From Scenedesmus sp. ARA3 (Eukaryota; Chlorophyta; Chlorophyceae; Sphaeropleales; Scenedesmaceae): DNA of 64,000 nt. This document shows, one piece after another, positions 3,312-63,876 of this stretch (position 1 is its first letter; each line of letters starts with the position of its first letter). The DNA lies in assembly GCA_004335835.1 (NCBI GenBank), contig RWJK01001239.1:63578-127577 (forward strand), read 5' to 3'. The translations under genes and the position numbers were made by a program. A model generated the notes under the pieces. That model searched no databases and was not told the origin of the DNA. It saw only the letters and a list, made by a program, of their open reading frames with translations.

Positions 3312-6300
3312 CAGCAGGCTGCCCTGGAGGAGCCCGAGGAGGATTATGGGGACCTGTGGGACCTCCTTGACCAAGTAGAGCAGCAGCACGGACTCTGCAA
3401 GCAGCCTCAGCAGCAGCCACTGCAGCAGGCCACGGCTGCAGCGGCTGCAGCAGCAGCAGCAGCAGTGCAGCCTGACACGGCAGCAGCAGCAGCAGTCGAC
3501 ATGACAAGTGCGCCACGCCCGTACGAAGTCGTGTATGACAAGGCCAAGCATGCAGCACCCCGCGGCGGCGTTGCAGCTGGCAGCGGCAAGGATGGACAGC
3601 AGATGCACTCTACCCTGTACAGAAGCTCGTTTGAACAACAGGGGTTGCCCGGCGATGTAAGGCGGCATAGCAGTGCAAGTAGGCTCATATCAAGTGACAA
3701 GCAAGCAGGCACAGCACTGCGGCAGCCGCCTTGGCAACAGCCGCTGCAGGGCCGGCAGACGTCACCGCGTGCAGCGCGCATTGAAGTGATGCACCTGACG
3801 ATGCCACCGCCTTACATGCCGTACATGCACATGCAGCAGCAGCCGCAGCAGCTGCAGCAGTTGCACGTGCAGGAAGCCGCGAGAGACTCGCCGCCCCCCT
3901 GGGCGACGTCTTGGGCTGCCTCAGTCTCTCGCAAGCACCCCTATGCCCAGCTGCCTGCACGGCTGTTAGTCAATGGCGCTGACAGTGGCAGCAGCATAGA
4001 ACCATGGCGGCGGCAGCAGCAGCAAGACAGCCGGCACAGCAGCGGCGCCAGAGGCGGCGGTTGTGCAACAGTTGCAGCTGCTGCAGCAGACAGGCAGGCT
4101 GAGGCACGTGCGGGTGCCGCAGGTTCAATGTCAGCAGTGACGCGTATCGCTGGCAGCTCCGCTAGTCAGCAGCAGCAGCAGTCGTCTGCTAGTGCGTGTG
4201 CCAGGGCAGCAGCCATGCTGCAGCATGCATCCTCCGTGTCAGGTGCATCTGGCGGCACCACTGGCGGCCCAGCAGCTCCAGGCGGCAGCCGAAACAGCCC
4301 TGAGGCATATTTCAGGCGGCATGTGCAGCAGGTGGACCCATTCTGGGCTTCTGCCACGCCAGATGATGTGGGGCTCGTGGCGATTCGGCACCTGCCGCCG
4401 GCGTCAGCCGCAGCGCTGGCAAAATCTGCTGCTGCTGGAGGCAGCGGGCAGTGCAGTGTCAGCTGCAGCATGAGTGTGCTACTGACCAACTCACAGGTCC
4501 GGATGGTGAAGGCAAAGACGGCGACATTGCAGGTGGGTGGGTGGGCGGCAGCAGCCCTGCGACGTGCTGCAAGGAAGTACATCAATGCAGCTTTGCAAGC
4601 GAAGGGGGATGGCAAACATGAATGCCGTGCGAGTGTGGGTAGGCCTCTTGTCTCGGGTTCCGTCTGCTTATCAGCGCTGTGCAGGTGCCGACGTGTCAGC
4701 TGCCGCCCCTGTTGCTGTGCGCTTGAGGCAATGTTGTTAGGCAAAGCTGCGTCTGCTGCATCGCGCATCCAGTTCAGCAGGTGTCTGCTTTGTCGTTGTT
4801 CTGTGCCTGCGCTTGCTGCGTCCTACCTTGAGCCAGTTGCACGCACGTACTGATGCTTGCGCTTCTGCTGCTGCTGCTGCTGCTGCTGATGCTGCTGCTG
4901 CCTTTGTCTTTGCAGCTGGTGTGCATGCTGGTGGGCGACGCAGTGCCGCACCGCTGCCAGTGGCCGCCCTCGGTGCACCTGACCGTCAATGGGCAGCGAA
5001 TGCACGTCAAGACAGCAAAGCGCATCGGCACACAGCAGCTGAAGCCCACACAGGTTGGTTGGCAGCGCAACATTTAATTGAGCCAGTAGGAGAGACTACA
5101 GCTGCTGTGCGCTGGCAGCTTGTGTTCTGTTGCTGCATGTCTCTTGGAATCCATGGGATGCCTCCTGCACACAGACCTGCATTGTGCAGCCTGTTCATCG
5201 CGCATCATCCGGCTCATACGAGACCCTCTCCACGCATGTTATGCTGCTCCTGTATCATGCACGTCGAAAGCAAATCACGCCATCATGCTGCCACTTACAC
5301 GTGATGCTGCCTCTACACTGCTGCTGATCTCTTTGTAGGTCGACTCCCTGGTGGACATCAGCGGCTGTGTGGGTGGCGCCGCCAGCATTGTGCTGCTGAG
5401 CGGCGCCGTCAGTGCCAGCAGCAGCAGCAGCAGCTACGTGCTGGGGGCGCGGCTGGTGCGGCAGCAAGGCAGTGACAGGGTGAAGGCGCTGATGGCGGCG
5501 CCACCTAGCCTGGAGGCAGCACTGACGGCCGTCAAGGACAAGGTGTGGAATCAAAGCATTGGACGGGGTGCGGGGACGGTGGCAGTGGCAGTGGGACTGA
5601 GGCTCATGCAGGCTCAGGACACTTCTCGGCATGCGTCCTTGCAGTGTTGCAGCTCTTGTGTTCGGCATTCCCATTGCGCTGTCGGTTTGTACCCTCCTAC
5701 TTTGTTGCTAACGTGTGCTTGCCACTTGCTGCTTCTTGCCTGCAGCTCGCCGGCGATGGCGACATCGAGGTGTCGGGCGCCGCGTTGCCGCTGCGCTGCC
5801 CGCTGTCCGGCTGCCTCATCCACACGCCGGCTCGCTTCCGCAGCTCCCCTGGGCTGGATTGCTTCGATCTGGAAGCCTTCCTGCAAGTAGCTGCAGCCAG
5901 CGGCAAGTGGCAGTGCCCGCAGACGATGGCGCTGCACAGCGTGGGCGAGTTGAGTGTGGAGCCGTATTTGGCTGCGGTGCTGAAAGCGCTGCGGGGCGCG
6001 GGGCTGGCAGAGGGCGTTGAGGCAGTGGAAGTGGCGCCAGGTGGGTTGAGCTGCTTTGATGTATCGTTAAGCTAGCTCTACGTTGCAGCGAACTGGTTGC
6101 TTCCAGGCCTGCACAAGGGGTGGTCAGGCACGGGTATCATTTCACATGTGAGCGGGGCATGCCCGTTGGCGAGCTGAGTATGGAGCCGTACGTGGCTGCG
6201 GTGTTGGTTGTGTTGAGGCGTGCGGGGCTGGCAGAGGGCGTTGAGGCAGTGGAAGTGGCGCCAGGTGGGCTGGCTGTGGTTGTGTTTGTTTGTCTGATTG

Positions 6301-62100: not shown

Positions 62101-63876
62101 GAAACAGCACACAAATATCGAACCTCAAGTCCCCATCTTGAGCTCCTAACACCAGATGCCCGCTAGCAGCTCCTCCATGTCGCTTTCAGGTGGACTATAA
62201 CTGCCTAAGCTTGAGCCCTACCAGGGGTTAGTAAACCACAATCAAGACCTCAAATCCCCACCTTGAGCTCTTCAGACCAGATGCCAGCCAGCAGCTCCTC
62301 CATGTCACTCTCAGGGGCCTCAATCTCTCCGCTGCTGCTGCTGCCGCTGCCGGCGCCACGCACCAGCCCCCACTCCGGCTCTGCCAGAGACTTGACATCA
62401 ATCTTGCCGTTGGGCAGGCGGGGCATGACTGGCAGGCTCACAAGCTTGGCAGGCACCTGAGGCAGCACAGCAGATTTACCAGTTGCATGTGTCAAGCTGA
62501 GACAAGACTATTGATGCTGACGCGGCAGGGTTTTAAGTAAGGGTCTAGGCGCTGCAGCCCGCAGCACCAGCCAGCAGCTGCTAGCCGGCCTGCTGTGGAT
62601 AACATGCAATCACTTGGCCTTGTATTGCCGACAACGAGCTGGTTTATGCAAGTTGATATGTAACATATGTTACATGTTATATGACAATTTACAGTCTCAC
62701 CATTGCCGGCAGCAGCTTGGCCCTGCAGTGCGCCTCAGCAGCCGCCAGGTCGACGCTGTCAGGGGCCACATAGCCAGCCAGGCGGTACGTGCCGTTTGGA
62801 TCCTTCCACGGCTTGACTGCTGCATGCGTCACACCTGCGACAACCACAACAGGCAGCAGCGCAGCGTTATTGGGCTGATCATATCACAGTTTCTGGAGAC
62901 ACGGCTGAACTGACACGTGTCATCTGCACAGCATGCACAGCCACACATGACGCACCTACTGCTGTCAAGCGCTGCCACCACCTCACGGCTCGCCGCCATG
63001 CGGATCACCCCTATATCATTACAACACCAATCTACCAAACCCCAAACAACCCAGAAGCTTAAATAAACAACTCACTAATGGATGCGCCCGTTAGGTCCGC
63101 CTCCACCTCTTTGGAATCTACTCAATAACCCAACATGCATCAATTGCAAATTCACACGCAAACACTCAAACACGCAACAGCGCCCACCGGTGCGCCCGCC
63201 AGCACCGCCTCCACCTCGCTAACCTCTACATCCATGCATGCCCCTATTTATTGCAAGGCCGGATTCACAGGTTCTTGGTGCATTGAAGTATGCTGCATCA
63301 AAGCCCACACCTGGTGCGCCCGCCAGCACCGCCTCCACCTCGCTGACCTCCATGCGCACGCCGTTGATCTTGATCTGGCGATCAGCACGCCCCAGGTACT
63401 CCAGCTGCAAGGTTGGTGCACAGGCAGCGGCAACAGAACATGCAGACAGCAGCAGCGTGTCTCAAGGCGGCGTGATTGCGTACCTTGACAGCTTGGTCGA
63501 GCAGGTGCATAAGGAGCAGCTGCCACTATGTGTTTTGTGTGAGTGGACAGGCACCGGCGGGTGCTGGCAGCCAACGTCTGTTGCTGCATTGGACAGGGCT
63601 GGATAAGAAGGAATGTTATTGCAAGCGCCGATTGATGCAGCACAAATGGACAGACAGCAGCACCCATGCTCACCTGGCCATCCTCTCCCATCACAATAAG
63701 GTCACTCGTCCTGTAGGCCAGCCTGTAGTGCTCACGCAGGGCGGCTGCAGCAGCAGCGTCACTGGCACTGCCGCAACTCTTCAGGGCAGCCGTCGACTCC
63801 TCGAACCAGGGGTTGGGCACATATGCGGCAGCAGTCTGCTCGGGGCGGTTGCGGTAGCCGCGAGCCAAGCGGGGCC
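56157..63876 (-). CDS. Pls-like (epsilon-poly-lysine synthetase class) NRPS-like membrane enzyme, 3' part
   Basis: Predicted membrane synthetase that activates an amino or other carboxylic acid as adenylate, loads it on a carrier and condenses or transfers it. Fifteen minus exons in phase: 63876-63674, 63404-63311, 62834-62701, 62456-62262, 61844-61730, 61480-61044, 60793-60439, 60185-60112, 59849-59714, 59385-58975, 58716-58503, 58003-57806, 57549-57138, 56760-56491, 56246-56157; 1,111 residues here, and the N-terminus lies beyond 64000. Residues ~1-165: end of an adenylation domain (LARGYRNRPEQTA, YRTSDLIV, LEYLGRADRQIKINGVRMEV, LPNGKIDVKSL with the catalytic-type Lys). Residues ~190-260: carrier domain (FFEIGGNSLRAGLI, Ser for phosphopantetheine). 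Then three repeats of a TM pair plus a hexapeptide-like domain with a W(Y/L)LRA(L/M)G.K(I/V)G motif at ~480, ~745 and ~995. This order is that of bacterial Pls. The stop follows ASPALPGIKYSL. The substrate cannot be read: the specificity-pocket region is outside the window. Confidence 0.88.
58150..58445 (-). repeat. Three echoes of the Pls-like exon ending at 58503
   Basis: Copies at about 58445-58377, 58321-58250 and 58200-58155 repeat the exon's last ~65 bases (codons around ELYEVEDTASVC), the first two with the following donor GT. They lie downstream in the intron at ~126-base spacing and decay with distance. Confidence 0.9.
60206..60257. repeat. CAG tract in a Pls-like gene intron
   Basis: About 17 uninterrupted CAG units immediately 5' (minus sense) of the exon beginning at 60185. 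Confidence 0.95.
62046..62195 (-). repeat. Two echoes of the Pls-like exon ending at 62262
   Basis: Copies at about 62195-62131 and 62090-62046 repeat the exon's 3' edge (codons around DMEELLAGIWSEELK). The second keeps an intact GGTGGGG donor. Confidence 0.88.
63075..63235 (-). repeat. Two echoes of the Pls-like exon ending at 63311
   Basis: Copies at about 63235-63188 and 63121-63075 repeat the 3' edge of the A8-motif exon (codons EVSEVEAVLAGAP). The first keeps a GT donor. Confidence 0.85.

Follow-up and report, generated by a model that had tools for sequence, protein, structure and literature searches.

In the 64,000-nucleotide window analysed here (Scenedesmus sp. ARA3, C899:63578-127577), edges of exons recur in the adjoining introns as short copies that carry the splice site along, referred to below as echoes. 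A likely origin of these copies is local duplication of DNA spanning the exon border. With slightly better than even confidence, we propose that such duplication would build repeat modules that are silent in splicing, the exon parts of which would be kept alike by exchange. The window belongs to a single assembly of 87.3 Mb in 1567 contigs. We compared it with itself by the Basic Local Alignment Search Tool (BLAST) after masking CAG/CTG runs. Local direct repeats are found at every place named by the sequence-only reading, an earlier interpretation of this DNA, and the exon-edge copies that it reported in the named genes are thus present. In the alignments, the shared blocks end at the splice site, at donors such as CAG/GTGCG and at acceptors such as TGCAG/ (in splice motifs, the slash marks the junction).

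Outside the window, we examined exon matches of the Pfam chaperonin, tRNA synthetase, and kinesin families on 40 loci. All 59 chaperonin and all 37 synthetase matches are used, together with 89 of the 130 listed kinesin matches, namely those on 23 loci. Eight matches nested in another, which are taken as echoes, and 11 matches longer than 450 base pairs (bp) are set aside, leaving 166 exons. Copies accompany 48 of these exons, 121 copies in total, of which 109 reach an edge and 12 reach neither. A single edge bears up to six copies. The sequence-only reading placed copies of 3' edges downstream and copies of 5' edges upstream, and this direction holds for all 109 edge copies (56/56 and 53/53, respectively) and at all window sites with an assignable genuine copy. 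However, neither the direction nor the kept frame adds evidence for a filter by splicing, because both must follow from tandem duplication when the edge in use is the one joined to the exon body. Arrays were also counted in 11 smaller loci of five further families (L044-L054; AMP-binding and aldehyde dehydrogenase matches were sampled only, in L044-L046; exon contact was read in L050 alone), and eight of the 11 hold local repeats.

GT-AG models were made with a small spliced-alignment program for SPATA20 in the window (17 exons) and for the chaperonin genes CCT5 and CCT8 (13 exons each; the CCT5 locus stops within the last exon of the model). The SPATA20 model comes from a spliced alignment to protein P0121, and the gene has Pfam PF03190 matches. 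SPATA20 of the window is 97% identical to a Tetradesmus obliquus protein across half of the query, and CCT5 and CCT8 of the assembly, compared by eye, nearly equal T. obliquus records, so the DNA comes from this species or one closely related to it. Copies are present at 12 of 24 inner edges in CCT5, 13 of 24 in CCT8, and three of 32 in SPATA20. Contact with an exon is seen for 27 of the 28 arrays in the three models, where 17.3 would be expected (standard deviation 2.3, maximum 25 in 2000 circular shifts); the array at the SPATA20 coding end, outside the limit of the script, is excluded from this test. This excess over shifted positions agrees with the earlier claim of a duplication process at exon/intron boundaries. 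When only exons matched by hidden Markov models (HMMs) are used, 56 of 112 arrays touch an exon, against 31.3 expected. In SPATA20, one array is purely intronic in the spliced model (43834-43928).

The codon-position pattern tells which edge is coding. In a sister test of 25 exons with at least two copies, the genuine edge carries 3, 0, and 21 changes at codon positions 1, 2, and 3, and the youngest copy carries 9, 10, and 20, indicating that the edge joined to the exon body is the coding one and that the copy is largely free.

At the border, the exon part and the intron part of the copies behave differently. The border analysis covers 87 of the 109 edge copies, the other 22 being without a clear splice site near the HMM end. 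In 47 pairs of copies of one edge, the exon part matches at 0.89 and the intron part at 0.68 (random 0.57), and the first six intron bases match at 0.87. The match of the intron part is bimodal, either longer than 30 bp or hardly any. Where the exon part matches at 0.93 or more, 14 of 17 inner copies and three of 17 outermost copies have intron homology longer than 30 bp, and in 13 of 17 outermost copies it ends within 9 bp. Outermost copies usually lose their likeness at the splice site, including those with more than 93% identity in the exon part. Plain decay after tandem duplication gives no such bimodal border; we therefore prefer exchange among the exon parts. Duplication across exon/intron borders is supported as earlier proposed, but the units are not all plainly tandem, since outermost copies mostly lack a match on their intron side. 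In SPATA20 exon 8, two adjacent copies match each other at 0.84 in the intron part and 0.78 in the exon part, whereas the same two copies match the genuine exon at 0.90 and 0.75. This mismatch is a possible trace of exchange.

The median spacing between neighbouring copies is 127 bp (quartiles 115 and 148; n = 109), with a 5-95% range of 100-240 bp, none below 80 bp, and a small second group around 240 bp. The aligned exon part has a median length of 54 bp. In fresh arrays the unit comprises both an exon part and an intron part, as in SPATA20 exon 2 (106 bp), L010 (three copies, 117 bp spacing, 97-98% identity), CCT5 exon 11 (six copies, 107-108 bp spacing), and L050 (three copies, 145 bp spacing). 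Judging by its sequence, the copy at SPATA20 exon 2 is a plain tandem duplication. The sequence-only reading also held that similarity decays with distance, which is not what we find: among 25 edges with at least two copies, the nearest copy is more alike in 10, less alike in 13, and tied in two, and the mean rank correlation of similarity with distance is +0.24 over 12 arrays.

Introns that bear echoes are longer in the three gene models: their median is 622 bp (n = 21), compared with 264 bp for introns without copies (n = 19; p 3.6e-7), consistent with the earlier suggestion that the copies could lengthen introns. The mean intron of T. obliquus is given as 462 bp, and those of four other green algae as 230-302 bp, in a published comparison table (PMC5966456). 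We infer that edge copies are linked to the long mean intron of T. obliquus.

The proposed mechanism would begin with break repair or slippage that duplicates about 100-150 bp spanning a splice junction, a step based on the fresh arrays, in which exon and intron part are still united. Reading would be confined to the copy that adjoins the exon body, so added intron-exon units would be nearly neutral; the copies would be harmless because splicing likely removes any number of them. Purifying selection would stabilise the genuine exon part, and the exon parts of the copies would thereby stay capable of recombination, both with it and among themselves. Through unequal exchange or conversion, arrays of the form X-e-(I-e)n would result, in which exon parts are alike, inner intron parts are alike, and outer flanks are unlike. 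Intron parts would meanwhile diverge: the inner ones would be copied along, and the outer flanks would drift yet keep, or once have kept, splice quality. Purely intronic duplicates, without such an anchor, would fade, leaving arrays at exon edges and longer introns. Tentatively, exon edges may even be engines of intron growth in this lineage, the repeat at a selected edge being permanently competent for recombination. An array invisible to the spliceosome would then be born at as many as half of a gene's edges in some cases, would grow and shrink by about 127 bp at a time while the protein stays the same, and would make introns more than twice as long.

Several observations weigh against the exchange mechanism. 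The families were chosen by the authors and not at random, and spliced models cover three genes only. With exons masked, 19 arrays are still found, and five of them start no more than 12 bp from an exon, the expectation being 5-13% depending on the gene; because this excess is modest, part of the enrichment at edges may be detection bias. Echoed exons are distributed unequally, with five of 81 in kinesin, 31 of 55 in chaperonin, and 12 of 30 in tRNA synthetase genes. The outer flanks of outermost copies bear hardly any relation to their genuine counterpart (z 0.83, standard error of the mean (sem) 0.28, n = 32; z 0.50, sem 0.31, n = 13 where the exon part matches at 0.93 or more), which counts against the mechanism because plain tandem duplication then needs strong later exchange, here inferred. 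These flanks are nevertheless as rich in pyrimidines (0.707, n = 11) as genuine acceptors (0.687, n = 22; random 0.475), a hint of use. Changes in the copies also fall in excess at third positions (43 against 21.8 expected after base correction), to the same degree whether or not the intron part of the copy matches, which suggests some coding constraint, a past coding role, or mutation bias.

The duplication process is widespread yet very uneven among genes. The fraction of bases in local repeats is 0.27 in chaperonin loci, 0.23 in synthetase loci, and 0.03 in kinesin loci (L021-L043). The earlier claim of a genome-wide process is therefore retained in that many genes are affected, but not in the sense of a uniform one, the kinesin loci being nearly free of copies. 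Third-base composition, taken as a proxy for expression, does not clearly separate echo-bearing from echo-free loci. The telomere-like words TTTAGGG/CCCTAAA occur 25 times in 132 kb of echo loci (among them L007, L011, and L018) and twice in 128 kb of echo-free loci; 15 of the 25 lie within L007, and 133 control words of the same composition average 16.5 versus 14.0. The excess of these words in echo loci is a lead.

The exchange mechanism has to be set against other readings. Ordinary tandem duplication may occur anywhere in genes, with the selected exon side merely staying recognisable for longer. On this reading it is natural that copies evolve almost freely, that substitutions within alignments are twice as frequent in the intron part as in the exon part (19.7% versus 9.7%), as one-sided constraint predicts, and that the SPATA20 coding end, an edge without a splice site, is echoed as well; chance alone already gives edge contact for 17 of the 28 arrays. 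However, the contact of 27 of the 28 goes beyond this, and local duplicates of every kind are scarce or lacking in 18 of the 23 kinesin loci and in some further ones. The bimodal intron part, in which homology stops within 9 bp in eight of 20 copies with an exon identity of at least 0.95, is too sharp for a twofold rate. We therefore regard this reading as serious but rather unlikely. An artefact of assembly or haplotypes is barely credible: the draft is in 1567 contigs, and mixed alleles could conceivably yield third-position differences, but the copies are diverged and stand in stepped arrays, and echo-derived peptide occurs at the same two places in T. obliquus records from other assemblies. 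The CCT5 and CCT8 records of T. obliquus exceed the related proteins that served as templates (P0003 and P0242) by 15 and 11 residues, and the extra residues are in-frame peptide duplicates that map to echoes (L011 8474-8518 and L005 reverse-strand 2923-2987). The CCT5 echo peptide differs in some residues between the copy of this strain and the T. obliquus record, the one strain difference seen. Echoes are thus present in another assembly of the species.

The echo peptide may be either an annotation error or real mini-exons, and the second option touches the idea that the copies are functional, as alternative or poison splice sites selected, for example, to tune expression. The genuine-like polypyrimidine tracts at 11 outermost acceptors and the third-position bias lend themselves to this idea, as does the splice dinucleotide, kept in 84% of 87 copies, but that retention is no better than exon identity predicts (0.839 versus 0.826). 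Moreover, codon positions 1 and 2 change in the copies and hardly in the genuine edge, 55 copy offsets have no frame preference (18, 20, and 17 for remainders 0, 1, and 2 modulo 3), and, in the two 5'-edge arrays read base by base, no donor was seen where the copy ends on its inner side. We consider selected function improbable. Still less probable is copying specific to edges, in which template switching or RNA-templated repair would insert the exon edge in one piece with the splice core. Such copying would account for the homology of outermost copies, which mostly ends within 9 bp of the junction, and for single-copy edges, of which 17 of 29 end in this way with exon identity up to 98% (five end at 10-30 bp and seven beyond 30 bp). 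In contrast, fresh multi-copy arrays include intron parts, and the single intervening stretch used as a query occurs once in the genome; to our knowledge, no process of edge-specific copying has been described.

Related duplications are known. In potato RNA-dependent RNA polymerase, an intron was gained via tandem duplication across an intron-exon border (PMC4974935). As in the alga, a local tandem duplication crosses the border and copies the splice signal, but potato shows one event and a new intron, whereas in the alga some genes have copies at many of their edges, as many as six copies belong to one edge, and the coding sequence is unchanged in the spliced models. Tandem genomic duplication with AGGT is reviewed as a mechanism of intron gain (PMC3443670). 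There, too, an intragenic tandem duplication interacts with splice sites, but an exonic segment is duplicated to become an intron, whereas the algal segment includes an existing border and sits in an existing intron. Hellsten (2011) and Gao and Lynch (2009) are said to be sources for duplication with AGGT. Break repair yields small tandem duplications and short insertions below 100 bp (PMC8355091). Being short, local, and placed at DNA breaks, they are a plausible source of new units; as described there they have no tie to exon edges, and the algal spacing is mostly 100-150 bp at exon edges. Patch-mediated insertions in rice reportedly belong beside them.

Minisatellites or variable-number tandem repeats have tandem units of about 100 bp, inner units that are alike, and diverged ends. 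The algal arrays share the homogenised inner units (the 14 of 17 inner against three of 17 outermost copies above), but, unlike minisatellites, every unit holds an exon edge and a splice site, and one copy is coding. Introner elements place near-identical intron sequence at many unrelated loci. Here, a whole-genome search with one intervening stretch matched only its own place, and a foreign source of that stretch was rejected. In a small sample of eight stretches (four intervening, four outer flanks) compared with the studied loci and the window, only matches to the stretch itself or its own array were found, bar one weak match of 31 bp. Tandem, mutually exclusive exons arise by duplication of a whole exon with both splice sites, but the echoes reach one edge (109 of 121) or neither (12). 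The arrays differ from known border duplication in density, stepped arrangement, common spacing, unchanged coding sequence in the models, and like exon parts with unlike flanks. No description of such exon-edge arrays was found among the ranked results in open-licence literature.

The features of the window are listed in the table. The three copies at SPATA20 exon 15 are found by BLAST, two of them being found by probe.

Table. Exon edges and their copies in the window (positions counted from the first letter of the window)
Feature	Position	Strand	Basis
SIZ-like gene, exon 3' edge, predicted donor at 6041	5940..6048	+	
SIZ-like edge copy, downstream; likeness ends a few bases past the donor	6164..6272	+	
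Putative secreted paralogue 1, exon 5, 5' edge	20081..20126	-	
Paralogue 1, exon 5, 5' edge, two upstream copies: 20201-20257, 20303-20348	20201..20348	-	
Paralogue 1, exon 4, 5' edge	20788..20836	-	
Paralogue 1, exon 4, 5' edge, two upstream copies: 20911-20959, 21091-21136	20911..21136	-	
Paralogue 1, exon 3, 3' edge, downstream copy, 98% across 47 bp	21461..21507	-	
Paralogue 1, exon 3, echoes at both edges	21778..21898	-	
Paralogue 1, exon 3, 5' edge, two upstream copies: 21953-21995, 22094-22141	21953..22141	-	
Putative secreted paralogue 2, copies offset by 120 bp about exon 5 edge	25455..25736	-	
Paralogue 2, exon 3: edge 26747-26794, upstream copy 26839-26886	26747..26886	-	
SPATA20 gene, 17 exons; three splice edges and the coding end bear echo arrays	38487..46628	+	spliced alignment, Pfam PF03190
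SPATA20 exon 2, genuine 3' edge CCACTG/gtgagg	39340..39434	+	spliced model
SPATA20 exon 2 edge, one copy that includes about 60 intron bp; unit of 106 bp, 91% identity	39493..39606	+	self-comparison
SPATA20 exon 8, genuine 3' edge ATACAG/gtgcgg	41514..41647	+	spliced model
SPATA20 exon 8 edge, four copies; junctions after 41810, 41944, 42063, 42188	41775..42191	+	
SPATA20 exon 15 edge, three upstream copies: about 45004, starts 45158 and 45287	45004..45346	+	
SPATA20 exon 15, genuine 5' edge cag/GCGGCT	45410..45547	+	spliced model
SPATA20 last coding stretch (46530-46632), copy in 3' flank; edge without splice site	46769..46873	+	
Membrane gene, three 3'-edge copies, GTGAGG donors, junctions after 49900, 50072, 50298; genuine one unassigned	49783..50305	+	
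Pls-like gene: edge 58498-58565 (in open frame 58442-58870); downstream copies 58377-58441, 58251-58313	58251..58565	-	
Pair spaced 125 bp: 62122-62190 and 62247-62315, ends near CAGG; exon unassigned	62122..62315		
Pair spaced 123 bp: 63179-63226 and 63302-63350; exon unassigned	63179..63350		

The SIZ-like gene has a zf-MIZ match (E 1.1e-9), and GCGCCAG/GTGGG is common to its edge and copy. Exons of the putative secreted paralogues are read from conserved frames alone, and three pieces tried gave no Pfam match; an inverted repeat of 84% identity lies in paralogue 2 (26336-26440 and 27740-27843). Ahead of the membrane gene, the open frame at 48636-49073 matches a PIH1 CS-like domain (E 7.6e-7). 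Units in the Pls-like gene are spaced by 126 bp, with 2.6 copies, and the region also holds short minisatellites of 17 bp (56030-56170) and 21 bp (57014-57122), unlike the edge units of 100-150 bp. A large array with units of about 420 bp and no link to a known exon occupies 52819-55915, and about 70% of bases in 52001-56000 lie within local repeats. No local repeat is found in positions 1-4000; part of a kinesin gene lies in the left end of the window (1-642; C899:62012-64219). CAG/CTG runs, some of more than 30 units, are very numerous throughout the window, in introns and open frames.

For gene annotation the echoes are a warning, two T. obliquus chaperonin records already containing echo-derived peptide. 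If the proposed mechanism is true, it would provide a source of intron length other than transposons or random insertion, and intron growth would be tied to the constraint on exons. The arrays would also supply natural series of duplicated splice sites, presumably with a single one in use, and thus a test bed for splice-site choice.

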